DNA from: a bacterium
GTDB lineage: Bacteria; SZUA-182; DTGQ01
Reading direction: 5' to 3'
NCBI GenBank assembly: GCA_040755755.1
Contig: JBFLZW010000086.1
Span: 1-23,388 of the forward strand
Length of the DNA: 23,388 bases
Of this stretch, positions 108-18,153 are shown piece by piece. Each line of letters starts with the position of its first letter. Position 1 is the first letter of the stretch. Position numbers and translations under genes: made by a program. Below the pieces are notes generated by a model. That model was given only the letters and a program-made list of their open reading frames with translations, was not told the DNA's origin and searched no databases.

Positions 108-163
108 TTATGGCGACGTGTACTAAGCCTTTATTCTTTGGTATTAAAATAATCAGCAGCATA

Positions 164-1405: not shown

Positions 1406-1463
1406 GCTTTCCTGTGGATTTGAAAAAAAGACATGTCAACATACATATTGTTTTTTATAAACC

Positions 1464-2483: not shown

Positions 2484-2499
2484 GATAACCTAACAAACC

Positions 2500-3324
2500 A
2501 TGAACAAGCCGATGTTTTTTAAGAACAAGGATAATAACTATAACCTCTTTGGCTTTCTCTTTCATCCGGAAGTGAAAAACAGTAATAACCGAAGAGGCGT
2601 TATATTTTGTGACTCGATCGGGAATGAAAAGTACTCAAGTCATAGAGTATTGGTTAATTTTGCCAGACTGCTTCAAGAAAATGGCTACATTGCATTTTTG
2701 TTTGATTATTACGGGAACGGTGATAGCGATGGAGATTTTGAGGATACAACACTTGATACGTATCTATCAGACATAAAAACAGCTATTGAATTCTTAACAG
2801 AAGAGACAAAAGCAGAGGAGATTTGCCTTCTCGGGTTAAGGGTAGGAGCTATTTTCGCCTCTCTGCTTGCTCGGGAAAAAGAAATAGTAAAGAATCTCAT
2901 TTTATGGGCACCAATCATAAATGCCAGAAAGTATATTTACGACTCATTAAGATCAAACCTGAATATGCAGCTTACCATACATGGGAAGCTAAAGTTTAAC
3001 CGAGATCAGTTAATAGAACAAATACAGAATGACGTCACCGTAGAGACAGATGGATATACAATATCCAAAGGCTTTTACCAGAGCCTATTGCCGATTAACC
3101 TGAATACAATCGATAAGCCGTTTACTACAAAAACTCTCGTAATAGAGTTGTCGAGAAATAGTAATACGGTAAATACAGAATTCAATATGCTTTTTAAAGA
3201 TAACAACCAATGCTTACGGATGGTAATAGCAGAAGATATTTTCTGGACAATAAAGGGAACCAATCAAAGATATATAACCAGGCAAAAGGTTCTTTTTGGA
3301 AAAACACTGAGCTGGTTAGGCTAG
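2500..3324 (+). CDS. Alpha/beta hydrolase-like protein, similar to exosortase A system-associated hydrolase 2; nucleophile elbow has Arg
   Basis: The alpha/beta hydrolase fold is suggested by the strand/turn FDYYGNGDSDGD (68-79) and by the elbow LLGLRVGAIFAS (110-121). Where serine hydrolases have G-x-S-x-G this protein has G-L-R-V-G, so the nucleophile is replaced by Arg. A catalytic His is not evident either: the expected C-terminal position reads EDIFWT. From memory, a GLRLGA elbow and a C-terminal FW are also typical of the exosortase A system-associated hydrolase 2 family, found in EPS loci with PEP-CTERM sorting; I cannot run the HMM. Classical hydrolase activity is therefore unlikely, and a structural or carrier-handling role is possible. 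The next gene has a similar N-terminus (FKNKxNN... pattern), so the two are probably paralogues. Start ATG at 2500, with no clear Shine-Dalgarno. Confidence 0.7.
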   Translation: MNKPMFFKNKDNNYNLFGFLFHPEVKNSNNRRGVIFCDSIGNEKYSSHRVLVNFARLLQENGYIAFLFDYYGNGDSDGDFEDTTLDTYLSDIKTAIEFLTEETKAEEICLLGLRVGAIFASLLAREKEIVKNLILWAPIINARKYIYDSLRSNLNMQLTIHGKLKFNRDQLIEQIQNDVTVETDGYTISKGFYQSLLPINLNTIDKPFTTKTLVIELSRNSNTVNTEFNMLFKDNNQCLRMVIAEDIFWTIKGTNQRYITRQKVLFGKTLSWLG

Positions 3325-3333
3325 GGTAATAGA

Positions 3334-4353
3334 GTGGAAGAGCCGGTAATTTTTAAGAATAAAAATAATCAAGAGCTGTATGGGATAGCTCACATCCCGT
3401 CTGAGAATGAATCCAGGAAAAAGATCGGAATTATTTTTCTCAACCCTGGTCCTGGATATAGAACTGGTCATAACAGGCTCTATGTTATCCTGGCAAGGAA
3501 ACTGTCCCAAAAGGGCTTCTATTGTCTGCGCTTTGATCCTGCCGGCCTTGGAGAGAGTGAAGGTGAGGTGGAAGAGGCCATGCTTTTTGATCTGTTTACC
3601 TCAATAAACCAGGGCCGGTTTGTTCACGATACAATTGAGGCCGCCAATTTTTTTATTGAAAAGTATGAGTTAAGAGAGCTTATTTTAACTGGTTTATGTG
3701 GTGGAGCAATGACCGCTTTACTCGCTGCACCTCATTGTCAGAAAGTCAGTTCTCTTATACTCATGGGGTTCCCGGTATTATTCAGCTCTCTTGATATAGG
3801 AAGCGGCACTCAGCATGCTGTATATGCACGACGCACATTGAGAAACTGCCGTGCGTGGATCGCGAATTTCAATGTAATAAGTTTGGATTCATACAGGGGT
3901 TTGATCAGGAAGATTAAGGCTTATGGATTATATGAACTGGCGGCTCTGTTACCGAAAGCCCTGCTTCGGACATTGAAGAAAGACAGCCACGATTTTCACC
4001 CGCATTTTAATAAATTATTCATGGATGTTCTTGAAAGTGTCAGTAGAGATATTAAGATAGGCTTTATCTTTGGCGAGCATGACAGATGGAGATTATTTTT
4101 TGAGGTGGAATTCGAGCAAAAAAAAATGTGTAGAAAATATGAAAAAAAATATTCTTATCGAAAGTTCATAATCAAGGAGGCAGACCATTTGCTTTCTTCG
4201 CAGACATGCCAAAAGGAATTGCTCGATGTTATTGAATATATAATGCATAGCAATAAACTTGATTTTCAATTTGAGGGTCACCGTTCTGCAAACGATTTCC
4301 ACTTTGGAAATTTTCCAGGGAAAAGGGTGAAATTATGCGGAATAAAGCCCTGA
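3334..4353 (+). CDS. Alpha/beta hydrolase, similar to exosortase A system-associated hydrolase 1; Cys nucleophile elbow
   Basis: A serine-hydrolase-fold protein whose elbow reads ILTGLCGGAMTALLA, with G-L-C-G-G at 120-124, so the candidate nucleophile is Cys122. The other triad members look intact: Asp250 in FGEHD and His285 in EADHL. The oxyanion-side loop FDPAGLGESEG lies at 67-77. An elbow GLC-[DG]-GA is what I recall for exosortase A system-associated hydrolase 1, which fits the tandem arrangement with the preceding hydrolase-2-like gene. It may be a thioesterase, acyl-transfer or ester hydrolase acting on a polymer substituent or carrier, but the substrate is unknown. The start is GTG at 3334, preceded by AGGG at 3323-3326 that overlaps the stop of the upstream gene. 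The last 19 nt overlap the polymerase gene. An A9 run (4118-4126) and an A8 run (4142-4149) lie just upstream of the catalytic His codon. Confidence 0.72.
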   Translation: MEEPVIFKNKNNQELYGIAHIPSENESRKKIGIIFLNPGPGYRTGHNRLYVILARKLSQKGFYCLRFDPAGLGESEGEVEEAMLFDLFTSINQGRFVHDTIEAANFFIEKYELRELILTGLCGGAMTALLAAPHCQKVSSLILMGFPVLFSSLDIGSGTQHAVYARRTLRNCRAWIANFNVISLDSYRGLIRKIKAYGLYELAALLPKALLRTLKKDSHDFHPHFNKLFMDVLESVSRDIKIGFIFGEHDRWRLFFEVEFEQKKMCRKYEKKYSYRKFIIKEADHLLSSQTCQKELLDVIEYIMHSNKLDFQFEGHRSANDFHFGNFPGKRVKLCGIKP

Positions 4354-5825
4354 GAAGAAAATTTTCAATATCGCATAAGGTTTTTCTGCCTATAGCATAC
4401 ATAAGTTTTGCGGTGATAGCAGTAATAGTTTTTGTCTCAGGCCTTTCTGATTTATTTTTTCTCCCTTCCATTATCATTGCTAATATCATAGTTATTTTCA
4501 ATTGCGTTCGAGCTCAAAGAAGGACTCGATATGGCACATTTGCCAGTTTATCTGCTCTTGCTCCTCTTTTTTTCTACTTGTGTCATTTTTTGTACCAAAC
4601 TGCCTTCCAGCTCGGTTTCGTTGAATATAACGAGTATGTAATATTTAACTTTCACTTGTATCGTGAGGCAACCGTGCTGGCATTGGCAGGTCTTTTTGCT
4701 TTAATGGCCGGTATTTATTTTAGTGAATGGTTATATAGTAACAGCATAAGAATTCCCTGTAAGAAAGACCAATCTTATGATGACGTAAAGTTCCACAAAG
4801 TAGCGGTCATTTCTTCGATTATTTTCTTTCTCATCCTCCTAGGAGAAATTTTTAGGATTGGTTTTGCAGATTTTGCAGCGTCGGGGTATGCTCGATCCGA
4901 GTTAACTGAAAAATTTTCAAGGATACTAACCAATGCGCAACGTTTTTTTATGTATAGTATTTTTGCCGCCTTTGCAAGTCTGCCCCGCAAGAAATGGAAA
5001 AGAGGCATTATACTTCCCGGTATTCTTGCTTTGCTTTTTTTCATGCTGCTGTCAGTATATGGCTATCGTGGGCATATAGGCGTCTTTTTATTGACATGTT
5101 ACTGTGTATTCGCAATTCGAATACATCCACTGCCTCTGAAAATATTGACGGTTTTCTTTACTGCCATGATCATTAGCTGGTCTGTTATTCTTGCAGGCCG
5201 ATCCATCGCAATTTCTGAGAGAGATTATTCAAGTATCATCAGCAGAGCTACAACCACTGACTCCATTATCGACACAGCAGTGAGAACACCTGGAATGATG
5301 ATTACCATGGTAACGAGAACTATAAACCTATATCCCCATATCTTTCCCTATCTCTGGGGAAAGAGTTATCTGAATGGTATTTACTTTTTGATACCAAACC
5401 TGTCACTGGAAAAAAAAAGGTCTTCAACTTTATACAGATTTGATCTCGCAATGAGCGCGTATTATTTTGGTAGTGTATTTCGTTCAATAAGAGGAGTGGG
5501 TATGGGAGCAACCCCTCTTGCAGAGGCATATGCCAATTTTGGGATATTGGGTTTATCACTTTTATTTTTGGGGGGCTGGTTTGTAGGCAGGACGGAGCTG
5601 ATTTCGGTTTCTTCAGGGAATTGCCTATTGCTGGCATTTCTCGGGATTAGCTCATATACCATATTGTGGTCAATGAGAAATGACTTTCTGACACTTCCCA
5701 GAGGAATCATATATGGCTATTTATTTTTAAAGCTGCTTTCATTTTCGGCCGCTTGTTGTAGCAATATCCGGGTGAGAACGACACAAGTATCGAGGAAAAT
5801 AGTTGCTCAAAGGGATTATTCATGA
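4335..5825 (+). CDS. Multi-spanning membrane protein, O-antigen/EPS polymerase (Wzy-like)
   Basis: This 496-residue protein has about 11-12 hydrophobic segments, for example residues about 15-35, 38-58, 70-90, 112-133, 153-172, a long pair around 225-265, and several near the C-terminus. Between the later helices is a large hydrophilic loop (about residues 285-395) rich in Arg and Tyr, typical of the periplasmic catalytic loop of Wzy polymerases. Sequence conservation in this family is too low for a motif-based call, so size, topology and its place among glycosyltransferases carry the assignment. The role would be polymerising lipid-linked repeat units at the periplasmic face. An O-antigen ligase is the main alternative. 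The ATG at 4335 has AGGG at 4324-4327. It overlaps the upstream hydrolase by 19 nt, and its stop overlaps the next ATG (ATGA), so the three genes are probably translationally coupled. Confidence 0.75.
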   Translation: MRNKALRRKFSISHKVFLPIAYISFAVIAVIVFVSGLSDLFFLPSIIIANIIVIFNCVRAQRRTRYGTFASLSALAPLFFYLCHFLYQTAFQLGFVEYNEYVIFNFHLYREATVLALAGLFALMAGIYFSEWLYSNSIRIPCKKDQSYDDVKFHKVAVISSIIFFLILLGEIFRIGFADFAASGYARSELTEKFSRILTNAQRFFMYSIFAAFASLPRKKWKRGIILPGILALLFFMLLSVYGYRGHIGVFLLTCYCVFAIRIHPLPLKILTVFFTAMIISWSVILAGRSIAISERDYSSIISRATTTDSIIDTAVRTPGMMITMVTRTINLYPHIFPYLWGKSYLNGIYFLIPNLSLEKKRSSTLYRFDLAMSAYYFGSVFRSIRGVGMGATPLAEAYANFGILGLSLLFLGGWFVGRTELISVSSGNCLLLAFLGISSYTILWSMRNDFLTLPRGIIYGYLFLKLLSFSAACCSNIRVRTTQVSRKIVAQRDYS

Positions 5826-6973
5826 AAGATATCCTGTTCTTACGCCAGGCTTATCAAAATTTTGGCGGGATAGAAGGGCAAATTCTCCTCATGGCCAGAG
5901 AATTTGCATCTCGTAAATTATTCAACCCTCTATTAGCTACTTCTCAGAGAGCTTCCCGGTTCGGGCAAGAATTTAAGGCACTTGGCTTTCCTGTTTATGA
6001 AGTTCCGATAGGCAGAGAAGACAAGCTCAATGAGGGAGTCAAGGCTATTGAACCCATCCTGAAAAAGCATACCATAGCATTAATTCAAAGTCACGCCTTT
6101 CGCGAAAGCCTTATTGGCAGAAAGGTTTGCAGGAAACATCCTGAAATTTCCCATGTACTGAGGGTTCACCTTTATATCGATTGCTCAGAGATTCCGAAAT
6201 GGAGAAAGGCTACCTATCATATTTTAGATAAATTAACCTCAAGGTATGTAGATCGATATGTGTGTATTGACCGGGTTACCTTAAGGGAATTAACTGAAAA
6301 TTCCTGGCTCCCATCAACTAAAACTCATCTGGTGACAGATGCGATTGAAAAGATAGGTGAGCCTGACTCGCTGGAATATAACTCCAATTTGCCTTTGCCT
6401 GCCCGAATTGCTATGGTGGCAAACTTTTTACCCCATAAGGGGCACGATGTCCTTATTAAGGCATTATCAATATTAAAGCTGAAAGGGTTGAAGGTTTACG
6501 CTCGTTTAATTGGTGGTGAATTAACCGGAAAAAGCCAGTCGAACCGTCCATCACTGGTGGCCAGTCTCAAGGAAAATGCCTCGGTATCAGGAGTTTTGGA
6601 CCAGATAGAGTTTTACGGCTACACTCGAAGTGTTTATGATGCGGTAAAGGGATATCCTGTCATTGTGCTTCCTTCACGTATTGAAGGGATTCCTAATTGT
6701 ATACTCGAAGCATTGACGCTGAAAAAACTCGTCATCGCTTCTCATGTTGGTGGTGTTCCCGAGATCATTCAAGACGGGATTAACGGTTTCCTTCATCCAC
6801 CTCAAGACCCGAAGGCATTAGCGGATATTTTGGAGAGGGTATTCACTGCACCCGCAGAAAGATGGCATTCAATACGGGATGCAGGGTATAGGACATGGGA
6901 AAAAAATTTTTCCGTACAGCAGATGATAGATGGATTATCCAAAATTTATAAGGGAATAGGAGTCTTGGCATAA
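5822..6973 (+). CDS. Family 4 glycosyltransferase (GT-B fold, retaining)
   Basis: A retaining glycosyltransferase for one linkage of the repeat unit. The N-terminal domain opens with a glycine-containing loop (FGGIEGQ, 14-20), as in GT4 acceptor domains. The C-terminal donor domain starts near 194 (ARIAMVANFLPHKGHDVLIKAL) and contains the GT4 E-x7-E motif, Glu288 and Glu296, within PSRIEGIPNCILEAL. This is followed by the conserved SHVGGVPEIIQDGINGFL segment that contacts the nucleotide sugar. Length (383 aa) is standard and no domain is missing. The start codon overlaps the polymerase stop in an ATGA arrangement, which implies coupled translation and a shared transcript. Donor and acceptor sugars cannot be inferred. 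Confidence 0.92.
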   Translation: MKDILFLRQAYQNFGGIEGQILLMAREFASRKLFNPLLATSQRASRFGQEFKALGFPVYEVPIGREDKLNEGVKAIEPILKKHTIALIQSHAFRESLIGRKVCRKHPEISHVLRVHLYIDCSEIPKWRKATYHILDKLTSRYVDRYVCIDRVTLRELTENSWLPSTKTHLVTDAIEKIGEPDSLEYNSNLPLPARIAMVANFLPHKGHDVLIKALSILKLKGLKVYARLIGGELTGKSQSNRPSLVASLKENASVSGVLDQIEFYGYTRSVYDAVKGYPVIVLPSRIEGIPNCILEALTLKKLVIASHVGGVPEIIQDGINGFLHPPQDPKALADILERVFTAPAERWHSIRDAGYRTWEKNFSVQQMIDGLSKIYKGIGVLA

Positions 6974-6985
6974 TCAGCGACGCAT

Positions 6986-8311
6986 ATGGCCAACCTCATA
7001 GAAAGGCATATATCAGAAGCTCTTCGTCCTTTTCCTCGAATCCGAACCTTTACCAGGAAAAGCTATCAGGGTGCCATGTATTGCCTGGGAAAGGCAATAT
7101 CTTTTCTCTATCAGGATCCCCCTAACCTTGTGCAGGCACGTGCTCTATCTGATAAAAGATATCATTGTTTTTTTGGCTACTACAATAACTGCCCATGGGA
7201 TCATAGTGGAAGATATATCGTGTGTCTGAAGGTCCCTTTTGCTCACCGTATGCCAAAACCAGGAGAGCCAGCCGAAATATGCCGTATCGACCTTCATAGT
7301 CACAGCGGATTGGAAAAAATTGCGGAAACAAGAGCCTGGTGTTGGCAGCAGGGCTGCATGCTGCAATGGTTGGGAGATATTTCTCACCAATATATCATGT
7401 TCAATGATTTCCAGGATGGAAAATATGTAAGTGTTATCACAGATACCTGTGGGGCGATGAAAAAAATTTTGCCTTTACCTGTTTATGCAGTAACGAAAAA
7501 TGGTCAGCAATCGCTCAGCATTAACTTTGCAAGACTTCACTATGGCGGTCCAGGATATGGATACGTTGCCAGGCCATTCACTGACAGCGATAAACCGGCT
7601 CCTGAACATGATGGCATATGGCACATGGACATCGAAACAGGAGAGCATAAGCTCATTATTTCCCTGGAGCAGGTGGTAAAAAGCTTTCGGGTGAAGAAGT
7701 TTGAAAATGCTTTTCATTATTTCAATCATCTGGAATTCAACCCGAGTGGAACACGTTTTGTATTTTTTCAGAGATGGTTTTATCGAGGGAAAGGCGATTC
7801 CAGAAGCCAGAACTTCACCCGGATGTTTACTGCCAACCCGGATGGCAGCGGTATTTATCTGCTCGCAGATCACGGGATGGTATCCCACTTTACCTGGCAG
7901 GATGATACCCGCTTACTGGCATGGTCCAAACATCCTTTGGCTGGGTGTTGCTATTACCTTTTTGAGGACAAAACAGAGAATGTCAGGATCGTTGGTGAAG
8001 GGATATTAACCGAGGACGGCCACCCCACATACTCACCTGATGGCAGATGGATTCTTACGGACACCTATCCAAATGACCGGCGCATGAGAACTTTGATACT
8101 CTTTGATTCCATAAATTCCAGACGGATTGAGCTCGGAAGATATTTTGCTCCTTTTGCATTTGATGGTCCGATCCGCTGTGACTTACATCCAAGATGGTCA
8201 CGCGATGGGAAAACGGTGTGTTTTGATTCTGCTCATGAGGGAATGAGAGCAGTATATACGGCCAATGTTGAAGAGCTGGTTTCGCGACTTCCCAAAAAGC
8301 AGAGCGATTAA
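6986..8311 (+). CDS. Beta-propeller protein, TolB/oligogalacturonate-lyase-like
   Basis: A 441-residue protein with repeated propeller blade motifs of the WD40-like/TolB kind: WDHSGRYI (71-78), FNPSGTRFVFF (251-261), HPTYSPDGRWILTD (346-359) and HPRWSRDGKTVCFDS (401-415). The spacing and the His-rich context (FHYFNHLEF near 243-251) recall the seven-bladed oligogalacturonate lyase family (PF14583), but identity of the metal-binding His set cannot be verified by eye. No signal peptide is apparent: the N-terminus is basic and only weakly hydrophobic (about 26-42), so a cytoplasmic location is likely. It sits 12 nt after one GT and 20 nt before the next, so it is cotranscribed with glycan assembly. 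It could be a lyase, a glycan-binding scaffold or an unknown sugar-modifying enzyme. I do not recognise a specific function. Confidence 0.65.
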   Translation: MANLIERHISEALRPFPRIRTFTRKSYQGAMYCLGKAISFLYQDPPNLVQARALSDKRYHCFFGYYNNCPWDHSGRYIVCLKVPFAHRMPKPGEPAEICRIDLHSHSGLEKIAETRAWCWQQGCMLQWLGDISHQYIMFNDFQDGKYVSVITDTCGAMKKILPLPVYAVTKNGQQSLSINFARLHYGGPGYGYVARPFTDSDKPAPEHDGIWHMDIETGEHKLIISLEQVVKSFRVKKFENAFHYFNHLEFNPSGTRFVFFQRWFYRGKGDSRSQNFTRMFTANPDGSGIYLLADHGMVSHFTWQDDTRLLAWSKHPLAGCCYYLFEDKTENVRIVGEGILTEDGHPTYSPDGRWILTDTYPNDRRMRTLILFDSINSRRIELGRYFAPFAFDGPIRCDLHPRWSRDGKTVCFDSAHEGMRAVYTANVEELVSRLPKKQSD

Positions 8312-8331
8312 AAATTATTGAGGAAATCACA

Positions 8332-9471
8332 ATGAGTAAGAATGATGTTGTAATTGTAGCCGAGTTAGATTGGGGAGGATTACATTGTCAGAGCCATGTA
8401 ATAGCTCTCGGCTTCGCCAATAGAGGGCATAAAGTCTATTATATCAATAGGACATTGCAGCGATGGCCTCACATAAATCACCTCCTCAGACGATTGTGTC
8501 CAAAGAGATCGCGTTGGTATGTCAATACTTACCCTCAACCGCCGGAGAATTTGTATCCTTTTACCTTATGGCTTGGTCCGCCGGTCCGATGGTTGAGGCG
8601 GGCTAACAGGATATTGATAGAAAAAGCTCTCCACAAGTACCAAATTAAGGATCCTCTAGTGATTGTTTACTCCCCGACTTTCAATGCCATAGATATTATA
8701 GAGACATTAAGGCCCAAAAAAATTATCTATATTTGCTATCACAATTTTGATGCCGCCCCCTCCTATGTATTACCCGATATTCTTTTGTCCGAGAAGGAAC
8801 TTATCAAAATTTCAGATGTTTTGTTTGCAGATTCGGCATTTCTGCAAGACCGTCTCAAGAAGATGGCTCCCGGCAAGCAGGTATTCAGGTCCATGCCGGG
8901 CGTATATTATGGATTATTCCATCAAGCGTTTCGCGGCGATGAAGCCAAGCAACGGAAGAACCTCTACTATTTTGGCTCGATAAAATATGATCTCGATTTT
9001 GGTTTGTATGAAGCAATGGCATCTCATATTCATACTGTGTTTATCGGAGTGGTGGACAGCGGTATGAGCACGAAGATCCCCTCAAATATAGAAGTTCGTC
9101 CGCCGGTTTCTAACAAGTATCTTCCGAATCTTTTGAAGGAAGCGGATATGTTGGGGCTTTTCTATAATGATTGCCCGTTTGTCCGGGGAATAATTCCAGC
9201 GAAGTTTTTCGAGTGCCTTGCTACTGGAAAACCAATCCTTGTTTCAGGATTACACGAAGCTAAACCTTATTTTGATGTTGTCTATAATGTTCAAGGATCA
9301 GAACAGAAAGCATTAGAGATAATAAAAAATTTACCTGATACTGAAACAGAATCTCGCTTGCGTAAGCGGGATGAAATTGCAAGGGATGCAGATTGGTCGA
9401 ATCGCTTCGGATTTTTTATATCTCAGCTTGACCTTGACCAAGGGCGTGATGATAAGTTCCACACGGTTTAG
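8332..9471 (+). CDS. GT-B fold glycosyltransferase (family 1/4-like)
   Basis: The protein begins with a beta strand and a loop, ELDWGGLHCQSHVIALGFANRGHKVYYINR (11-40), which resembles the acceptor domain of TuaH-like and related GT-B enzymes. The donor domain has YFGSIKYDLDFGLYEAMA (213-230) and the typical late motif PAKFFECLATGKPILVSG (289-306), in which Glu294 corresponds to a conserved GT4-type acidic residue. The classical E-x7-E spacing is not obvious, so it is a divergent member. It has a good ribosome binding site, TTGAGGAA at 8318-8325, in front of the ATG at 8332. It follows the beta-propeller gene by 20 nt. It most likely adds one sugar of the repeat unit; donor and linkage are unknown. 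Confidence 0.8.
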   Translation: MSKNDVVIVAELDWGGLHCQSHVIALGFANRGHKVYYINRTLQRWPHINHLLRRLCPKRSRWYVNTYPQPPENLYPFTLWLGPPVRWLRRANRILIEKALHKYQIKDPLVIVYSPTFNAIDIIETLRPKKIIYICYHNFDAAPSYVLPDILLSEKELIKISDVLFADSAFLQDRLKKMAPGKQVFRSMPGVYYGLFHQAFRGDEAKQRKNLYYFGSIKYDLDFGLYEAMASHIHTVFIGVVDSGMSTKIPSNIEVRPPVSNKYLPNLLKEADMLGLFYNDCPFVRGIIPAKFFECLATGKPILVSGLHEAKPYFDVVYNVQGSEQKALEIIKNLPDTETESRLRKRDEIARDADWSNRFGFFISQLDLDQGRDDKFHTV

Positions 9472-9509
9472 TAACAGAAAGATATTAAGGAGCATAGTAG
9501 GGAATTTTT

Positions 9510-10592
9510 ATGCCAGGGCCGTCAGCACTTCCCTTGGTTTCTTTTATCATTATCGCACGAAATGCCTCGCAGCATTTGCCGGACAGCTTATCTAATATTG
9601 CAGCACAGGATTATCCCAAAGATAGAATAGAGCTGCTTCTTGTTGATGGTTGTTCTCAAGATGGAAGTCGGCGCATTATGGAGGAGTTTGCTGCTGTTCA
9701 TCCTGATTTAAGAGTAATCGTTTTGGATAACCCTGGCAGGATATTATCCTGCGGTTGGAATGTGGCCTTAGCTGAAGCCAAGGGTGATATTATTATCAGG
9801 GTCGATGCTCATAGCAAAATTCCGACAGACTTTATCAAGAGCAATGTTCACAGTATGTTAAAAGGTGAATGTATTGTAGGTGGGCCAGTAATTTCCAAGA
9901 TGGCAAAAAGTTTATGGGAAAATCTGCTGGTTACAGCAGAAAGATCAAAATTCGGTGGTGCTGCTGCCGCCTTTAGGAATTCCGGCACTTCAAAACATGT
10001 TGATACACTTGCTTATGCTGCCTATAAACGGACTGTGTTTGAAAAAGTGGGCGGTTATGACGAGCGGCTGGTAAGGAATCAGGATAATGAGATTCATTAC
10101 CGGATGAAGCAGGCGGGGTTCAAATTTTTCTTTGATCCGGCAATAAGATCCTTTCATATTCCTCGATCGAGCCTTTATGGCCTCTTGAGGCAAAAATATG
10201 GCAATGGCCTTTGGATAGGATTGGCAATGGGTATTCAACCCCGCTGTTTCGGGATGCGCCATTTTGCTCCTGCCCTTTTTGTTGGAGCAATGGTCCTCTT
10301 TTTTATGGTGGGAATACTACGGAGCTGGGTTCCTCTGGTTTTATTAAGCGTCTTATATAGCTTGGCAGCGGTCGTATTTACCGTTGAGGCGATAGCTCAA
10401 TCCCCGTTATTGGTAAAACCATTCTGCTTACTGCTGCCGGTCATCTTTTTGTCCATGCATGGAGTTTATGGGATAGGGACAATGATCGGCTTCATAAGAG
10501 CGCCTTTTTTCATGTGGAAAAATCGGAACTACGAATTGCCCTGGCCGATCAAACCATCGGACAGGGTTACACCAATCAGAGGCAGAGGGTAA
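9510..10592 (+). CDS. ExoA-like family 2 glycosyltransferase with C-terminal membrane segments
   Basis: A GT-A enzyme with the N-terminal motif PLVSFIIIARNASQHLPDSL, nucleotide-binding LLLVDGCSQDGS (42-53) and RVDAHSKIP (97-105). D-A-H takes the place of a plain DXD, as in succinoglycan ExoA-type beta-glycosyltransferases. VRNQDNEIHYRMKQAG (187-202) matches the family's later acidic motif (N-x-D-x-E). The C-terminus has about three hydrophobic segments (near 250-270, 273-293 and 300-330), placing the enzyme at the inner membrane. The ATG at 9510 is supported by AGGGA at 9499-9503. It probably elongates the lipid-linked repeat unit. Some ExoA relatives act on lipid acceptors other than polymers, so the substrate is left open. 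Confidence 0.85.
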   Translation: MPGPSALPLVSFIIIARNASQHLPDSLSNIAAQDYPKDRIELLLVDGCSQDGSRRIMEEFAAVHPDLRVIVLDNPGRILSCGWNVALAEAKGDIIIRVDAHSKIPTDFIKSNVHSMLKGECIVGGPVISKMAKSLWENLLVTAERSKFGGAAAAFRNSGTSKHVDTLAYAAYKRTVFEKVGGYDERLVRNQDNEIHYRMKQAGFKFFFDPAIRSFHIPRSSLYGLLRQKYGNGLWIGLAMGIQPRCFGMRHFAPALFVGAMVLFFMVGILRSWVPLVLLSVLYSLAAVVFTVEAIAQSPLLVKPFCLLLPVIFLSMHGVYGIGTMIGFIRAPFFMWKNRNYELPWPIKPSDRVTPIRGRG

Positions 10593-10607
10593 CAATAAGA
10601 AAATCTT

Positions 10608-11270
10608 ATGAGGTCATCACGGAGCCTGGCGTGGGAATTCGGAAAAATGGGCATTTATACTCTGAGAGTTGCTACTCATAATGACATTGATCAGGTTGCT
10701 GGCATCCATAAACAGCAATTTTCGACACATTTCCTTGGTAAATATTCAATTGATTTATTGAAGCAGTATTATGCGAGCTTTCTTGGCGAAAGCATCTTTT
10801 TCGTAGGTGAAAAATCCAGCCAAATAGATGGATTTGTCCTTGGCGGCGAGAGTAACAAATTGCAGCAGGCAAAAAACAGGTTTATTAAACATAATAAATA
10901 CAGATGCATAATGGAAACGTTATTAATGCCGGAGATTTACTGCCAGGCTCTGAGCAGGATTTATTCAATAATTTCTGAAGTATCAGGCAACTACCTGAAC
11001 AGGTCATCTGACTGTTCACCTAACTGTGCTGTTGGTAAAAGGATACGGTTACTTTCAATCGCTGTATGTCAGGAAGCTCAAGGGAGCGGTCTCGCAACAC
11101 AGCTTGTACAGCTTTTTGAGCAAAGGATTAAGCTCGATAATGCTGCTCACGGCTATGGATTATCGGTAAAAATAGATAATCAAAGGGCCATAGGATTTTA
11201 CAAAAAAATCGGCTTCACCCTAGAAGGTAGAAAGGGTAAATCAATTTATTTTACAAAAAATATTGAGTAG
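10608..11270 (+). CDS. GNAT family acyltransferase
   Basis: A Gcn5-type N-acyltransferase. The acetyl-CoA loop QEAQGSGLA (155-163) follows strand LLSIAVC, matching the R/Q-x-x-G-x-G/A signature, and the C-terminal IDNQRAIGFYKKIGFTLEGR (189-208) is the usual GNAT motif B end. The central part (about 80-145) is longer than in minimal GNATs and contains a possible small insert. The first ATG is at 10608. An internal ATG at 10647 (MGIYTLRVATHNDIDQV) starts exactly at the first GNAT strand and may be the true start; neither has a strong ribosome binding site. Its place between the glycosyltransferases and the amino-sugar genes suggests N-acetylation (or other acylation) of an amino sugar. GNATs with protein or small-molecule targets cannot be excluded. 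Confidence 0.8.
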   Translation: MRSSRSLAWEFGKMGIYTLRVATHNDIDQVAGIHKQQFSTHFLGKYSIDLLKQYYASFLGESIFFVGEKSSQIDGFVLGGESNKLQQAKNRFIKHNKYRCIMETLLMPEIYCQALSRIYSIISEVSGNYLNRSSDCSPNCAVGKRIRLLSIAVCQEAQGSGLATQLVQLFEQRIKLDNAAHGYGLSVKIDNQRAIGFYKKIGFTLEGRKGKSIYFTKNIE

Positions 11271-11353
11271 GATAATTCCCCTGCCTTCCCTACCGTATCC
11301 CTCTCCTGAAAATCCATATTTTTTGTTCAATAAGGAAACCAAGGAAACAGATC

Positions 11354-12559
11354 ATGAATATTCCATTACTCAAAGATAACCAGCGTCTCCAGGTTAAGGC
11401 CATCGAAGAGGTTACATTTTTGCCCTTTGCCTTGCCTGACATCGGACCGGATGAAATCGCCGAGGTGGTCGATTCCCTGCGCTCCGGATGGATTACCACA
11501 GGGCCTAAGACCAAGCGTTTCGAGCAGGACTTTGCCGAATTCCTGGGGAATGGTGGAGAAGCAGTTGCGGTAAATTCAGGCACAGCGGGTCTGCATCTGG
11601 CTCTTGAGGCTATCGGCATCGGTATGGGTGATGAAGTTATCACCACACCTTATACTTTTACCGCCACGGCAGAAGTAATACGCTATTTGGGAGCCACGCC
11701 CGTTTTCGTTGACATTGATCCAGCCACTTTTAATATTGATCCGTCGCGGATCGAGAATGCCATTACCCTGCGCACCAAGGCTATTCTGCCGGTTCATTTT
11801 GCAGGGCTTTCCTGTGACATGGACGCTATCATAACTATTGCCCGGCGCTATGGGCTGAAAGTGGTGGAGGATGCGGCACATGCGCTGCCGACGGTATATA
11901 AGGGGAAGCTGATAGGGACACTGGAAAGTGACGCCACAATATACAGCTTTTACGCCAATAAGACCTTATCGACGGGCGAGGGGGGAATGATCGTAACCCG
12001 GCATCCTGAAATTGCCGAGCGCTGCCGGGTCATGCGCTTGCACGGAATCAGCCGCGATGCATTCGATCGCTACACCTCAACCACACCTGCCTGGTTTTAT
12101 GAAGTGATCGCGCCAGGGTTTAAATATAATATGTCAGATCTGGCTGCCTCTTTGGGGATCCATCAATTAAGAAAAATCTGGCATTTTCATGAGAGAAGAA
12201 GGCAGTTAGCCGAACGGTATGATTCATATCTGGGCGATCTGCCGCTCAGGCTTCCGCCCCATCCTCCTGACACAGACCTTCATGCCTGGCATATTTATGT
12301 CATTCGGCTGGATGAATCGGCAAAAATAAGCCGTGAGGCATTCATCGGACAAATGGCCGCCAGGGGTATTGGTTGCAGTGTGCATTTCATCCCGCTTCAT
12401 CTGCATCCCTATTGGAAAGATACGTATCGCCTGAAGCCTATGGATTTTCCCCATTCTCTTCTTTCCTATGAAAGAGCAGTGAGCCTGCCGCTTTTCACCA
12501 AAATGACGGACAAAGATCAGGACCGGGTCATTACCGCGGTTAGAGCATTATTAGCGTAA
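11354..12559 (+). CDS. DegT/DnrJ/EryC1/StrS family PLP-dependent sugar aminotransferase
   Basis: Transfers an amino group, usually from glutamate, to a keto-sugar nucleotide. The family pattern is complete: [23 protein letters not shown] (74-96), TPYTF (98-102), [10 protein letters not shown] with Asp173 near the PLP ring nitrogen, and the PLP lysine in [14 protein letters not shown] (Lys203). Length (401 aa) is normal. AAGGAAA at 11341-11347 gives a good Shine-Dalgarno for the ATG at 11354. This gene begins a block (aminotransferase, formyltransferase, deacetylase, phosphoglycosyl transferase, dehydratase) with tight spacing and overlaps. With the PglF-like dehydratase at 14865, the most likely substrate is a UDP-4-keto-6-deoxy-HexNAc, giving a 4-amino sugar; a 3-amino sugar is the alternative. 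Confidence 0.93.
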
Positions 12560-12582
12560 TTGCACAGCAAGAGGTATTATCC

Positions 12583-13533
12583 ATGAGGATCGGATGGATA
12601 GGTTTCCATATCGAGGGCAAGCCTGCCCTCCAGAGTCTCCTTGAGCAGGGCGTGCGGATAGAAGCTGTAATTACCTTGCGGCCGGAGCTGGCTGCCCGAA
12701 AAAGCGGGGCGATTGATTTTACCTCTTTGTGTCAACACCATCGCGTCCCTTTATATGAGGTTGCCAATATAAACGATGAAGCCTCGATTAAATTGTTGCG
12801 TGAGCTTGCTCTTGATTTGGCTTTTGTCATTGGATGGAGCCAAATCGTGCATGCTGAGGCACGTAACTCGGTAAAAATAGGAATGATTGGAGCACATGCA
12901 TCTTTCCTGCCTCATAACCGTGGCAGTGCTCCGATAAACTGGGCATTGATCAAAGGAGAAAAGCAGACCGGAAATTCCTTAATCTGGCTCGCTGAAAATG
13001 TGGATGAGGGTGAGCTGATAGATCAGGCAGTTATTCCCATCACCCCGTATGATACCTGCGCTTCACTCTATCAGCGGGTCGCCGAGTCAAACAGGGAAAT
13101 GATTCTTCGTATTCTTCCCAAACTGCTTGCTGGTGAGCGTCCCGGGATACCACAACCTCACAGTGAAGAGGCCATTTTACCCAGGCGTCATCCCAATGAC
13201 GGGCTCATTGACTGGACCAGGGAAAGCAGTGAGGTATATAACCTGGTACGTGCTTTGACAAAGCCCTATCCTGGTGCATTTAGCTGGTTAGACGGTAAAC
13301 GCTGGTTACTATGGCAATGTGCATTGCTGCCGGATTCTTCTTATTCTTATGGAAAACCCGGTGAAATAGTGGGGCAGACAGTTAGTCCCAGAGAAACTGC
13401 CTGTGGGCAGATGGTTGCCTGTGGAAAAGGTGCGGTGGTGATACTTGAGATCGAAGGAGATGACGGAGAGTCCCTGAGCGGCTGCTCTCTAAGTGACCAG
13501 CCATGGAAAGGGAAGGTGTGGGCAAATGAGTAA
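12583..13533 (+). CDS. Fmt-like formyltransferase (probable sugar N-formyltransferase) with altered catalytic Asn
   Basis: Uses 10-formyltetrahydrofolate to formylate an amine. The N-terminal domain has the hydrolase/formyltransferase signature with SFLPHNRG (107-114), equivalent to SLLPxxRG. His105 and Asp141 match the catalytic His and Asp of E. coli Fmt (108 and 144) with identical spacing. The catalytic Asn (E. coli 106) is replaced by Gly103 (IGAHASFLP). A C-terminal beta domain (about 205-316) follows, as in Fmt. At 316 aa and inside a glycan locus, next to a sugar aminotransferase, it is more likely a sugar formyltransferase than the tRNA enzyme. GAGGT at 12571-12575 precedes the ATG. 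Its 3' end overlaps the next gene's ATG by 8 nt. The Asn loss may reduce activity or define a subfamily; I recall G-x-H variants in other glycan loci but cannot verify this. Confidence 0.82.
   Translation: MRIGWIGFHIEGKPALQSLLEQGVRIEAVITLRPELAARKSGAIDFTSLCQHHRVPLYEVANINDEASIKLLRELALDLAFVIGWSQIVHAEARNSVKIGMIGAHASFLPHNRGSAPINWALIKGEKQTGNSLIWLAENVDEGELIDQAVIPITPYDTCASLYQRVAESNREMILRILPKLLAGERPGIPQPHSEEAILPRRHPNDGLIDWTRESSEVYNLVRALTKPYPGAFSWLDGKRWLLWQCALLPDSSYSYGKPGEIVGQTVSPRETACGQMVACGKGAVVILEIEGDDGESLSGCSLSDQPWKGKVWANE
13513..13518 (+). promoter_or_regulatory. Ribosome binding site that decides the PIG-L start
   Basis: AAGGTG sits 7 nt before the ATG at 13526, inside the 3' end of the formyltransferase gene. 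It favours 13526 over the upstream in-frame ATG at 13493, which has no such site and would add 11 residues before the conserved strand. Confidence 0.6.
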
Positions 13534-14212
13534 CATGCGTGAAAAGAGAGTGCTGGTAATCGGTGCACATCCTGACGATGAGCTCTTGGGTTGCGGAGGG
13601 ACACTTGCCCTGCACGCCAGAGCCGGCCACTATGTAGTGGCAGTCATTGCCTGTGAAGGAGAATCCCTCCGCTATGGGAAAGCAGGTGTTAGACAAAATA
13701 CCCATATTCAGTGTGCATCTCAAAAGCTTGGCATCCAGGATCTTCACCTCCTGGGATTTTCAGACCAACGGTTAGATACTCTGACCTTAACCGATATCAT
13801 AAGTCCTTTAGAGCAAATAATCCGGGAGAGACAACCCCATATTGTTTATTGTCAATTTGGCGGGGACATTAACCAGGACCATCAACTTCTCTTCAAGGCG
13901 GTATTGGTTGCCACTCGTCCGACTGAAAGGTATATTGAAGCCATTTACGCATTCGATACAGCCAGCAGCACAGAATGGGCCTATCCAAGAACATTTGTCC
14001 CGGATACATGGGTCGATATTTCATCCACTTTAGAAATCAAGCTGGAAGCAGCGAGCTGCTACACAAGCGAAATGCGCGAATATCCTCATCCTCGCTCGTT
14101 AAAGGCGCTACACTATAAAGCCAAAGCCTGGGGAAACCAGAGTTGTCTCGATGCAGCCGAAGTGTTTATGACCATTCGGAAATTATATCGCAATGGTCAG
14201 ACGCCTTTTTGA
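13526..14212 (+). CDS. PIG-L/LmbE family N-acetylglucosaminyl deacetylase-like protein
   Basis: A zinc-dependent deacetylase that removes N-acetyl groups from GlcNAc-type sugars or conjugates. The family metal motif AHPDDE is at 14-19 (GAHPDDELLGCGGTLALH), and the third ligand, His119, lies in GGDINQDHQ. The segment EYPHPRS (185-191) is typical of the family's second half. Length is 228 aa. The ATG at 13526 is chosen from its ribosome binding site; it overlaps the formyltransferase stop by 8 nt. A start at 13493 would extend the overlap to 41 nt. The gene overlaps the next one by 20 nt, so the trio is translationally coupled. Next to a formyltransferase and an aminotransferase, it may free an amine for formylation or remove acetyl from a finished repeat unit. 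The exact substrate is unknown. Confidence 0.88.
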   Translation: MSNMREKRVLVIGAHPDDELLGCGGTLALHARAGHYVVAVIACEGESLRYGKAGVRQNTHIQCASQKLGIQDLHLLGFSDQRLDTLTLTDIISPLEQIIRERQPHIVYCQFGGDINQDHQLLFKAVLVATRPTERYIEAIYAFDTASSTEWAYPRTFVPDTWVDISSTLEIKLEAASCYTSEMREYPHPRSLKALHYKAKAWGNQSCLDAAEVFMTIRKLYRNGQTPF

Positions 14213-14855
14213 CATAATTTTATCTTGTATCGCATTGATCGTTTTCCTTCCAGTTCTTTGCATGGCAGCGATAGGAATCTGGCTGAGCAGCCCTGGCCCG
14301 ATTTTTTATCGGGCCAGGCGTGTGGGCCGTAATAAAAAAATATTTACTATGTATAAGTTTCGTACCATGCACCGTGATCAGAGAATGTTCAAGAGCGTCA
14401 TAACCGCGAAGAACGATCCGCGTATTTTTGCCTTTGGATCATGGCTGCGCCGATTGAAAATAGATGAGCTTCCTCAACTCATTAATATAGTAAAGGGAGA
14501 AATGTCAATCGTGGGACCAAGAGCGGAAGACCCTCGGATTGTACATACATACTATACTCAACAACAGATTGAAACGCTGCATGTCTTGCCTGGATTGGCA
14601 AGCCCTGGCAGCATATACAACTATACGCATGGTGAGCGGTTTATCGATAAAGATAATCCTGAAAAGTGTTACCTCGAAAAGCTTTTACCCATAAAATTAG
14701 CTCTCGATATCATCTATGTGCGCGAATCATCATTTTTCTACGATCTGGAAATCATCTTCCGGACTATTTGGACTATCCTGCTGATATCGTTTGGAAAACA
14801 TTGCTTTCCAGACCCTCCTGAAATGAAAAAGGCCCGAAAGCTGATTAAGAATTAA
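14193..14855 (+). CDS. PglC/WbaP-type undecaprenyl-phosphate sugar-1-phosphate transferase
   Basis: A monotopic phosphoglycosyl transferase that starts the repeat unit by moving sugar-1-phosphate from a UDP-sugar to undecaprenyl phosphate. The N-terminal re-entrant membrane helix (about 8-30, LFDIILSCIALIVFLPVLCM) is followed by GPIFYRARRVGRNKKIFTMYKFRTMH (35-60), the catalytic Asp91-Glu92 in LRRLKIDELPQLINIVKGEMS, and VGPRAEDPRIV (107-117). At 220 aa it is the minimal PglC-like form, without the extra N-terminal helices of WbaP. The motif PGLASPGSIYNYTHGE (133-148) replaces the more common PGITG. It overlaps the deacetylase by 20 nt and is followed after 9 nt by a PglF-like dehydratase. The PglC/PglF pairing favours a diamino- or acylamino-6-deoxy sugar as the first residue. 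Confidence 0.9.
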   Translation: MVRRLFDIILSCIALIVFLPVLCMAAIGIWLSSPGPIFYRARRVGRNKKIFTMYKFRTMHRDQRMFKSVITAKNDPRIFAFGSWLRRLKIDELPQLINIVKGEMSIVGPRAEDPRIVHTYYTQQQIETLHVLPGLASPGSIYNYTHGERFIDKDNPEKCYLEKLLPIKLALDIIYVRESSFFYDLEIIFRTIWTILLISFGKHCFPDPPEMKKARKLIKN

Positions 14856-14864
14856 GGCCAGGTC

Positions 14865-16880
14865 TTGAATAAATCCAAGAAAAATTTATTACTTCTCATA
14901 CTTACGGATATGGTACTTCTTGCCATATCTCATGCTGGATCATATTTTCTTCGCTTTGATCTGAAGCTCCCTCCTGCACAGTATCTGGCAAGTCTAAAAA
15001 ATACGCTCATACCCTTCATTTCATTCAAGATTTTTCTCTTCTATCGGTTCGATCTCTATCGTGGCATGTGGCGCTATACAGGTTTGAAGGACCTTGAGAA
15101 TATTGTCAAAGCCTCTCTGTCCAGCTCGTTATCAATCGCTTTCCTCACCTTCATTATTACCGGATTTCATGGATTTGCCCGTTCCGTATTCCTCATCGAC
15201 GGCCTTCTTACGGTTTTTCTTATCGGAGGGTGTCGGTTGGGAATCAGGCTGTACTTCTCGTATTTGAAAAAAGATGCCCTTCCCTGGAGCAGAAACGGGA
15301 GTGATTACAAAAGGAAAAAAAGGGTCCTGATTGTGGGAGCCGGTGATGCCGGAGAGAAGATCCTGCGGGAGATTAACGACAACAGGGATCTGATGCACTA
15401 TGAGCCGGTGGGGTTCCTTGATGACAATCCCCGGAAGGTTCACCGGCACATTCATGGAATTAAGGTTCTGGACAGCATTAAGAACGTTGTCCCGGTAGCC
15501 CGTGACAAGAACCTTGACGAGATTATTATTGCCATTCCTTCCGCATCTGCAGAGGAAATGCGCCGTATTATCGATTTGTGCCAGCAGACAGGAGTAAACT
15601 GCAAGACCATCCCTGGTATCGGAGAGCTGATTAACGATAAAGTAAGCATATCGGCTATTCGGGATGTATCCTACTCGGATCTTCTTGGCAGGAGTCCGGT
15701 TAATCTGGATGTAGAGAGAATCGGCGCTTATTTGAAAGGTAAATGTGTCCTGGTGACCGGGGCCGGGGGATCGATCGGTTCTGAGTTTTGCCGCCAGGTG
15801 GCAAGCTTCAAGCCGAAAGTCATGGTCATGATGGACCGGGCGGAAAGCAGTCTGTACGATATCGAAATGGAGTTACGGCACCTGGACCCTCACCAGATTG
15901 TTGTTCCGGTTTTAGGTTCAGTGACCTGCCTGGATCATGTTAAGAGGGTATTCGGTCAATATCAGCCGGAGGTAGTTTTCCACGCTGCTGCTTACAAGCA
16001 TGTTCCCATGATGGAGATCCATCCCTGGGAGGCGGTCTATAATAATATCCTGGGAACCAGGAACGTCCTGGATGCAGCGATGGAGGCGGGGGCTGAGAAA
16101 TTTGTTCTGGTCTCTACGGACAAGGCAGTGCGGCCAACCAATGTCATGGGTGCCAGCAAAAGAGTTGCTGAGATTATCTTACAGCTTACGTATGAAGAAT
16201 CCTTAAGGCTGACAGAGGTTCATGGGGAATCAGAATCACTGCTGACAAAGGTTATGGCTGTTCGCTTTGGAAACGTTATCGGGAGTGCAGGAAGCGTTAT
16301 CCCTCTGTTTAAAAAACAAATCGCTCGTGGCGGTCCGGTAACTGTTACCCATCCGGAGGTTACCCGCTACTTTATGACTATCAGTGAGGCAGTCCAGCTT
16401 ATTCTGCAGGCTGGAGCCATGGGTGAGAGCGGAGAGATTTATATTCTGAAGATGGGAAGGCCGGTCAGGATTCTGGATATGGCCAGAGATCTTATCCGGT
16501 TGTCCGGTTTTACACCGGATAAGGATATTCGTATCGAGATCACAGGGCTTCGGCCAGGCGAAAAACTCTATGAGGAACTGATCATTGAAGGCGAGGGGAT
16601 TGTTCCCACTTCTCATGAGAAACTTATGGTCTTGAGATGCACTGACAGCAGGGGAAACGGAATGTCATGCAGTGAGCTCAGGGAGAAGATCGAAGAACTG
16701 CTCGCCCTGGCCCAAAGAAACGACCGGAGGGGAATACAGGCAAAATTACAGGAAATTGTGCCCGAATATCAGCCTCAAACCTTCAAGCGAGAGGTGCAAT
16801 TTCAGTGTGAAAAGGTTGTTGATCTGGAGGATGATGATGAGATGGTGTTTGATGTCAAAGGGGCTGCTTTACCCAGGTAA
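14865..16880 (+). CDS. PglF/WbpM-type membrane UDP-HexNAc 4,6-dehydratase (polysaccharide biosynthesis protein)
   Basis: Converts UDP-GlcNAc-type sugars to UDP-4-keto-6-deoxy-HexNAc. Order of elements: about four transmembrane helices (10-30, 48-60, 85-105, 108-130); a first Rossmann domain with VLIVGAGDAG (154-163) of the CoA-binding type; then the catalytic SDR domain with VLVTGAGGSIGSE (295-307), FHAAAYKHVPMME (372-384), STDKAVRPTNVMGASKR (417-433) and late FGNVIGSAGSVIPLF. The Lys of the classical YxxxK is preceded by Met, as in large PglF-type enzymes, with the STDK Asp-Lys pair retained. The start is TTG at 14865, 9 nt after the upstream stop, with AGG at 14860-14862 as a weak ribosome site. 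Length is 671 aa. It would feed the DegT aminotransferase encoded upstream. Confidence 0.92.
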   Translation: MNKSKKNLLLLILTDMVLLAISHAGSYFLRFDLKLPPAQYLASLKNTLIPFISFKIFLFYRFDLYRGMWRYTGLKDLENIVKASLSSSLSIAFLTFIITGFHGFARSVFLIDGLLTVFLIGGCRLGIRLYFSYLKKDALPWSRNGSDYKRKKRVLIVGAGDAGEKILREINDNRDLMHYEPVGFLDDNPRKVHRHIHGIKVLDSIKNVVPVARDKNLDEIIIAIPSASAEEMRRIIDLCQQTGVNCKTIPGIGELINDKVSISAIRDVSYSDLLGRSPVNLDVERIGAYLKGKCVLVTGAGGSIGSEFCRQVASFKPKVMVMMDRAESSLYDIEMELRHLDPHQIVVPVLGSVTCLDHVKRVFGQYQPEVVFHAAAYKHVPMMEIHPWEAVYNNILGTRNVLDAAMEAGAEKFVLVSTDKAVRPTNVMGASKRVAEIILQLTYEESLRLTEVHGESESLLTKVMAVRFGNVIGSAGSVIPLFKKQIARGGPVTVTHPEVTRYFMTISEAVQLILQAGAMGESGEIYILKMGRPVRILDMARDLIRLSGFTPDKDIRIEITGLRPGEKLYEELIIEGEGIVPTSHEKLMVLRCTDSRGNGMSCSELREKIEELLALAQRNDRRGIQAKLQEIVPEYQPQTFKREVQFQCEKVVDLEDDDEMVFDVKGAALPR

Positions 16881-16911
16881 TTCGTAACCTGCTCAGAAAC
16901 TTCACCCGGCA

Positions 16912-18153
16912 ATGACTATCGAAGAGCAGATTATCTTAAGCTATGCTATCCCTCAGCTCGATCATGAGGATACCTGCCGCACGTACAGGGAAACGGCAGG
17001 ATGGAAGAAGGTCAGTTGGGACCGGGTGCTGAAGCTGGCTCTCTTCCATGATGTGTTTCCATCAGTTTACCATCATCTGGAATATATCGGCTGGTCAGAT
17101 ATCCCGGCAGAGGTGGTTGCGAAATTCCGGAAAGAGTGGCGTCAGCATCTTGCCCGAAATATTATCTTATCCGATGAGCTGAATCGTATTCTTGGACTTT
17201 TTGCCGGAGAGAAGGTGAAAGCCATTCCCCTGAAAGGAGCTCTTCTGGCGGAATTGTTCTATCCGGATATGACGCTGCGGTCATTCAGTGATCTGGATAT
17301 CTGGATCAGGCCGATGGATATCGAGATGGCAGGGGAGCTCCTTCAGCAGCTTGGCTATGAACAATATTTTCACCTCGATGGGAGTAAGGCGATAGAAAAT
17401 GTTTGTGACATCTTATTCTATCGGTGCTTACGGGCAGGCCCCAGGATAAGTGTCGAGCTTCACCATCGACTGGTCAAAACGAGGGATTATCCGGCTATTC
17501 CTGAAGAGGAGTGGTGGCATCAGACTCAGGAGATATGGATTAATGGCCAGCGTTACTTTTCCCTTGCCCCTGACGATATGCTTATCTATCTGACGATAAA
17601 GATTCATGCTTCAGCCTACTGCTATCTCAAGCAATTTATCGACTTACATCAGCTCCTTACCCTCTGGGGCAGCAAACTGAATTGGGAGTGTATTTACCAG
17701 ACTGCTGAAAAGACGGGCATGCTGAATAACCTTCTTTTTGTCCTTGTGACTCTGGAACATCTCTTCGCCCCGTATGGTATATCGATACCTCATGCAGGGA
17801 ACAACCATTGGGTGAGATCAAGAATGGGACCCGTGCGTCTCCATTTTTTTGAACATATCTTCAACCGGCAAACGATCCTTCGCGGCCGGTACGGCCGCGA
17901 TCTGCGGAAGGGGCTCTGCCTCCTCCTGAACGATCGGATGGCCGATTCGATTACCTCCTGTCTCAGAGTTCTTTTCCCTTCCTCCGGGGCGATCTGTGCC
18001 CGCTATCTTACCTTGCCCCGCTCCAAAAAATTTTACCTCTATTATTGCCTCAATCCCTTTTTAATCATTTACTGGCTGTTTCGAGGGTTGGTGGTCAAAT
18101 CGACTGATGGACACGGGCTGGGAACCCTCCTCGGTCCGGTGAATCAGAAGTAA
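16912..18153 (+). CDS. Nucleotidyltransferase-fold family protein (NTP_transf_5-like)
   Basis: The protein carries a minimal nucleotidyltransferase signature: VKAIPLKGALLAELFYPD (102-119), followed by TLRSFSDLDIWI, in which Asp127 and Asp129 would bind metal. The LKG-x-n-Y-x-n-R-x-x-x-D-x-D layout is that of the uncharacterised nucleotidyltransferase family PF14907, whose members often lie in EPS or exosortase loci (recollection). The remaining sequence is helical with several Trp and His, and the C-terminus has a hydrophobic stretch (about 375-400). The ATG at 16912 has no clear ribosome site. It is the last + strand gene and converges on the DHOD-like gene 104 nt away. The target (protein or glycan) and nucleotide are unknown. 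Confidence 0.75.
   Translation: MTIEEQIILSYAIPQLDHEDTCRTYRETAGWKKVSWDRVLKLALFHDVFPSVYHHLEYIGWSDIPAEVVAKFRKEWRQHLARNIILSDELNRILGLFAGEKVKAIPLKGALLAELFYPDMTLRSFSDLDIWIRPMDIEMAGELLQQLGYEQYFHLDGSKAIENVCDILFYRCLRAGPRISVELHHRLVKTRDYPAIPEEEWWHQTQEIWINGQRYFSLAPDDMLIYLTIKIHASAYCYLKQFIDLHQLLTLWGSKLNWECIYQTAEKTGMLNNLLFVLVTLEHLFAPYGISIPHAGNNHWVRSRMGPVRLHFFEHIFNRQTILRGRYGRDLRKGLCLLLNDRMADSITSCLRVLFPSSGAICARYLTLPRSKKFYLYYCLNPFLIIYWLFRGLVVKSTDGHGLGTLLGPVNQK

Follow-up and report, generated by a model that had tools for sequence, protein, structure and literature searches.

A 23,388-nucleotide contig (hereafter the window, the whole stretch of DNA analyzed; contig C86 of a 5.3-Mb genome from a sparsely sampled phylum) carries a gene set that, in the reading we favor at a rough probability of 55%, builds the sugar that initiates a surface polysaccharide. 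A PIG-L de-N-acetylase and a formyltransferase (FT) with glycine in place of the catalytic asparagine would exchange the sugar's 2-N-acetyl group for formyl, a flanking GNAT protein would probably acetylate N4, and a phosphoglycosyl transferase (PGT) would load the product onto undecaprenyl phosphate (Und-P). A common explanation for N-formyl sugars is a formyltransferase that uses a 3- or 4-amine. As GlcNAc enters the pathway already acetylated, a formyl group on N2 cannot arise from such an enzyme. A deacetylase coupled to a distinct FT clade would be a gene-level answer to this problem, and would make the reported 5-N-formyl-legionaminic acid explicable.

Gene content and enzyme families of the window

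The features of the locus are as follows.

110-18153, + strand: polysaccharide cluster with a pyruvyl transferase, several glycosyltransferases, a Wzy-type polymerase, two hydrolases, the GNAT, the five genes and an NTP_transf_5 protein
10608-11270, + strand: GNAT acetyltransferase (PF00583, E 4e-9), candidate for acetylation of N4 or acylation of another amine
11354-12559, + strand: DegT/ArnB/PseC-type aminotransferase (PF01041, E 1e-132), predicted to form the 4-amino sugar
12583-13533, + strand: ArnA-like FT of the Gly-His-Asp clade (PF00551 and PF02911; ArnA E 2e-43)
13526-14212, + strand: PIG-L/LmbE metal-dependent de-N-acetylase (PF02585, E 3e-22; longest open reading frame from GTG 13493)
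14193-14855, + strand: PglC-like small monotopic PGT (PF02397, E 9e-55), predicted to transfer sugar-1-phosphate to Und-P
14865-16880, + strand: PglF/CapD-type membrane UDP-HexNAc 4,6-dehydratase (PF02719, E 3e-118; PglF/WlaL E 2e-89)

A sequence-only reading of the window had described the last five genes as one tight block, and coordinates, order, strand and family matches all agree with it: the frames are open, lie on one strand and match their families far above chance. That reading left uncounted the GNAT gene directly upstream. The likelier PIG-L start is ATG 13526, which has a AAGGGAAGG-like site upstream; PIG-L then shares 8 nt with the end of the FT gene, and PGT shares 20 nt with the end of PIG-L, as for a co-translated unit. 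The dehydratase starts with TTG. Elsewhere in the cluster, two alpha/beta hydrolases (2500-4353) adjoining the Wzy-type polymerase are akin to exosortase-A-associated hydrolases 2 and 1, with scores below cut-off, and no exosortase is found among the window's annotated genes. The cluster ends with an NTP_transf_5 (PF14907) protein that has a nucleotidyltransferase fold (16912-18153).

The dehydratase aligns with PglF across the STDKA...MGxxKR active site (E 2e-89); assignment as PseB was rejected (174 bits against a cut-off of 408), and a retaining PglF-type enzyme is thus expected. The DegT protein scores 398 bits against the NCBIfam model for ArnB and 389 bits against that for PseC, both below cut-off, and aligns with ArnB across the PLP-lysine region. 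The PGT, the shortest open frame among the genome's eight PF02397 transferases, matches PglC (E 2e-21) with its Asp-Glu dyad (LKIDELPQL) aligned. PIG-L exceeds the PF02585 cut-off with its HPDDE and second-His motifs intact, and H26-P-D28-D29-E30 and D129-H130 (numbered from the GTG) are invariant across 14 relatives.

With 316 residues and lacking an epimerase domain, the FT exceeds the cut-offs for both Formyl_trans_N (PF00551) and Formyl_trans_C (PF02911), and its best PDB match is ArnA (E 2e-43, 294 residues aligned). In the alignment Gly103 occupies the position of ArnA Asn102, which we take to be the catalytic residue of the Asn-His-Asp triad; the triad of ArnA-type FTs is thereby broken in the window protein, where His105 and Asp141 correspond to ArnA His104 and Asp140. 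Without the Asn the chemistry could be reduced or altered, and one alternative is that the protein is no longer an ordinary formyltransferase and transfers another group or serves as a partner subunit of PIG-L, its constant neighbor. The glycine is indeed invariant at this position in 11 aligned relatives (28%–51% identity to the window FT), all with the His and Asp kept. The window protein nonetheless retains LPxxRG from the folate loop of ArnA, both of these residues and the C-terminal domain, and a pathway of this type is reported to yield an N-formyl sugar (PMC6137143), so that we regard such a change of function as improbable.

Action of the FT on Met-tRNA, which would have undone the pathway of the sequence-only reading, does not apply. 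Identity with Fmt was ruled out: the genome's Met-tRNA formyltransferase is a separate gene on contig C41 that matches Formyl_trans_N at 156.5 bits, compared to 92 bits for the window FT, which also scores 142 against TIGR00460, under the cut-off of 201. Both Fmt and PurN of this genome are encoded outside the window. More generally, annotations of "methionyl-tRNA formyltransferase" within polysaccharide clusters become a testable prediction.

In the proposed pathway the dehydratase would convert UDP-GlcNAc (or an epimer) to a 4-keto-6-deoxy sugar, from which the aminotransferase would make UDP-4-amino-2-acetamido-2,4,6-trideoxyhexose. The flanking GNAT may then acetylate N4, PIG-L would remove the 2-N-acetyl group, the FT would place formyl on the nitrogen so freed, and the PGT would pass the finished sugar-1-phosphate to Und-P. 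This order of steps is a prediction. The overlap of the PIG-L and PGT genes, together with PGT-PIG-L-DegT groups that have no adjacent FT, makes PIG-L action before or after transfer both possible, and its substrate may accordingly be the UDP-sugar or the lipid-linked sugar.

Association of the Gly-type formyltransferases with PIG-L

We drew FT homologues from three bacterial genome sets (386 diverse genomes, 95 from one phylum and 295 from another) and from plasmids. After alignment, 102 have the Asn-His-Asp triad and 20 have Gly-His-Asp. Of the 20 Gly-type FTs, 13 have a PIG-L gene no more than 300 bases away. None of the 102 Asn-type FTs has such a neighbor, and 87 of them are flanked by 700 bases or more on each side. 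Fisher's test on these counts yields 4e-12, a value that describes an association at the level of a clade rather than many independent events, since one main clade (SH-aLRT 97) holds 20 of the 21 Gly rows of the tree; the tie to PIG-L is thus a property of that clade. All ten FTs from outside the search model, picked by FT score alone, also have the Gly and an adjacent PIG-L gene (L147-L151, L194-L198). No PIG-L gene was found in the stretches read around four Gly-type FTs (L045, L046, L156 and L159).

Either gene of the FT/PIG-L pair can come first, and the two are separated, yet still within one cluster, in rhizobia, Palleronia and Halorussus. We argue that this repeated re-association reflects a shared function. 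PIG-L also occurs without an FT, whereas closely related Gly-type FTs are nearly always accompanied by PIG-L, and this one-way dependence fits PIG-L acting first. The sequence-only reading had supposed that the deacetylase may create a second amine. The co-occurrence with the Gly-type FT makes the enzyme, which would unmask N2, look like a required partner and not an extra.

Several other gene neighborhoods were encountered in this survey. At three loci a Gly-type FT adjoins or lies near an asparagine-synthase-like protein (PF00733 was tested in L171 and L199; that of L172 is alike in size); no PIG-L gene was found within the stretch read in L171 or L172, and L199 has radical SAM genes and a divergent PIG-L. 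A second, short FT type has the motif C/I-F-H instead of N-x-H, lacks the catalytic Asn, and accompanies PIG-L and NeuB in pseudaminic-like clusters (L080, 6312-7693; L084, 7025-10567); among PDB entries, the L080 protein is closest to 1zgh. On a Pantoea plasmid (L088, 7001-7918), an ArnA-like FT retains neither the Asn nor the His of the triad (the motif reads GVQ), and its neighbors are efflux and iron-transport genes, with no sugar genes. On a Priestia megaterium plasmid (L087, 5989-10186), PIG-L is followed by a GT4 glycosyltransferase, a carbamoyl-phosphate-synthase-like protein and a phosphotransferase amid spore-coat genes; the PIG-L/GT4 pair is present on many Priestia plasmids.

Legionaminic-acid clusters and the probable site of formylation

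Beyond the five-gene set, the FT/PIG-L pair is found mainly in clusters for legionaminic acid, a nonulosonic acid, in both bacteria and archaea. In one of these clusters (L071, from a member of the family that includes the window's genome), LegC, NeuC, NeuB and NeuD score 556, 491, 508 and 235 against cut-offs of 420, 236, 400 and 161, respectively. All four also exceed their NCBIfam cut-offs in L168 and L202, and the pair is additional to them there as well; in L201, NeuD is over its cut-off. In a haloarchaeal cluster (L067, Halorussus), PIG-L separates neuB from neuC, and an FT of the Gly type is also present. NeuD-type enzymes (PglD/LegH-type) normally acetylate the 4-amine. In a pathway already complete, with NeuD for N4, the FT/PIG-L pair is surplus, and N2, the source of N5 in the acid, is the nitrogen left. 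These NeuD proteins may, however, carry out O-acetylation rather than acetylation of N4.

A product of the expected kind has been described. The archaeon Halorubrum sp. PV6 has 5-N-formyl-legionaminic acid on its S-layer glycan (PMC6137143). The N5 of this acid derives from N2 of GlcNAc. The cluster described for this archaeon includes legG, a predicted formyltransferase (HrrPV6_1050; 953 bp, ~317 codons), neuD and legI, and the passages describing it assign no deacetylase (PMC6137143). Formylation at N5 of an acid derived from GlcNAc needs removal of the N-acetyl group, a role that PIG-L offers. By analogy with the Halorussus and bacterial clusters, we predict that the Halorubrum formyltransferase is of the Gly type and that a PIG-L gene lies in its cluster.

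These clusters bear on where the formyl group goes. The sequence-only reading had placed it on N4, in the position that PglD acetylates. The FT would then act on the 4-amine like ArnA and VioF-type enzymes, with PIG-L independently deacetylating N2 to leave a zwitterionic 2-amino-4-formamido sugar or one that is re-acylated. To our knowledge, characterized sugar formyltransferases all act on 3- or 4-amines; ArnA, the closest solved relative of the FT, formylates a 4-amine, and a 4-amine is what the DegT enzyme would produce. Formylation of N4, however, does not need a deacetylase, yet the Gly clade tracks PIG-L; the legionaminic clusters that have the pair keep their own NeuD; and the product known from such a pathway is the N2-derived 5-N-formyl sugar (PMC6137143). 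We therefore consider N4 the less likely site and this alternative on the whole unlikely. The remainder of the earlier pathway is supported, namely a UDP-HexNAc 4,6-dehydratase, a 4-aminotransferase, a sugar-type FT and a PglC-like PGT.

A further alternative borrows the logic of the Arn pathway, with the 4-amine formylated for transient protection, the sugar transferred to Und-P by the PGT, and the formyl group then removed by PIG-L in the role of ArnD to leave a free 4-amine. The ArnB-like aminotransferase, the ArnA-like FT, the gene order (aminotransferase, FT, deacylase, transferase) and the overlap of the PIG-L and PGT genes would all suit this scheme. ArnD, however, is a deformylase of the NodB fold, to which PIG-L has no relation, and an ArnC-type transferase is missing. 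In addition, the legionaminic clusters that have the FT/PIG-L pair have no PGT partner, and their reported product retains its formyl group (PMC6137143). This makes transient protection a poor candidate.

The Gly clade accompanies PIG-L, and occurs otherwise in legionaminic clusters with an N4 acetyltransferase of their own, which argues for formylation of N2 by the window FT; the FT/PIG-L pair would most likely swap the 2-N-acetyl group for formyl, a site and chemistry that we infer from these neighborhoods. It is tempting to extend this to a two-gene "reacylation" module of bacteria and archaea, in which PIG-L and a Gly-for-Asn FT replace 2-N-acetyl by formyl on HexNAc-derived sugars, serving nonulosonic acids as well as the first sugar on Und-P; the Asn-to-Gly change would then fit the active site to a crowded C2 amine. 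We offer this extension tentatively, as falling somewhat short of an even chance.

Recurrence of the gene set and comparison with known systems

The five-gene set recurs on plasmids of Sulfitobacter, Leisingera, Palleronia, Rhizobium and Sinorhizobium, including pSymB of S. meliloti. In Sulfitobacter DSM 110093 the order is DegT-FT-PIGL-PGT-GNAT-dehydratase, contiguous save for the GNAT, and identity to the window proteins is 52% for FT, 59% for PIG-L and 50% for PGT. The Sulfitobacter GNAT, between PGT and dehydratase, is 27% identical to that of the window over 192 residues (E 4e-10), and the link between a GNAT and the gene set comes from these two loci. A search of the plasmids with the window GNAT gave no match. 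Leisingera has the order PGT-FT-PIGL-DegT-dehydratase and Labrenzia has PGT-FT-PIGL, while in Palleronia, R. gallicum, E. adhaerens, S. mexicanum and S. meliloti the five genes are dispersed inside one cluster. An Ensifer canadensis plasmid (pT173d, L190) has a Wza-PGT-PIGL-DegT cluster with no FT within about 22–26 kb. No close relatives were found on viral contigs, and a peptide-pattern search of genome contigs gave a single match, at 27%, the patterns being probably too specific.

The earlier reader had not seen this exact set described. A literature search largely outside subscription journals likewise found no description of it, of the Gly-for-Asn clade or of the tie to PIG-L, but the set also recurs outside this genome, in several Alphaproteobacteria. 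Each enzyme family is already known; as far as we have found, the combination and the tying of the Gly-for-Asn clade to PIG-L are new, and the acetyl-to-formyl exchange step had not previously been assigned to genes.

Four known systems invite comparison. In S. meliloti, SMb21247 (deacetylase) and SMb21248 (aminotransferase) are listed as activated by Clr and lie in a cluster for an unknown polysaccharide (nodP2-smb21248; PMC5498481). Judged by the gene content of strain ABS7 pSymB, this cluster shares with the window a PGT, the deacetylase, the aminotransferase, a Gly-type FT and a dehydratase, but spreads them over ~20 kb with sulfotransferases. In the ABS7 stretch (L193, 762000-811900), the PGT and DegT frames appear split, possibly by frameshifts or sequencing errors. 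The presence of the gene set in a cAMP/Clr-activated, uncharacterized polysaccharide cluster makes it genetically tractable.

The Halorubrum sp. PV6 pathway (PMC6137143) resembles that proposed here in adding a formyltransferase to a LegB/LegC dehydratase-aminotransferase route from GlcNAc, and related clusters of Halorussus and bacteria combine PIG-L with an FT of the Gly type. The Halorubrum product, however, is a nine-carbon acid made via LegG and LegI, whereas the window has a PGT and neither gene, NeuB/LegI and NeuC/LegG being absent from the window scans. The Arn system (ArnB, the N-terminal formyltransferase of ArnA, ArnC and ArnD) provides the closest solved relatives of the window's aminotransferase and FT. 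The window FT differs in having Gly for the catalytic Asn and no ArnA dehydrogenase domain, and PGT and PIG-L replace ArnC and ArnD, neither of which has a match among the scanned window proteins.

Compared to Campylobacter Pgl (PglF-PglE-PglD-PglC), the window has a GNAT and the FT/PIG-L pair instead of the hexapeptide acetyltransferase PglD, no protein of that type being found among its gene-sized open reading frames in Pfam and NCBIfam scans, and its aminotransferase is nearer to ArnB and PseC than to PglE. The likeness lies in the frame of the pathway, with a PglF-type dehydratase, a DegT aminotransferase and a small PglC-type PGT that loads a trideoxy-diamino sugar on Und-P.
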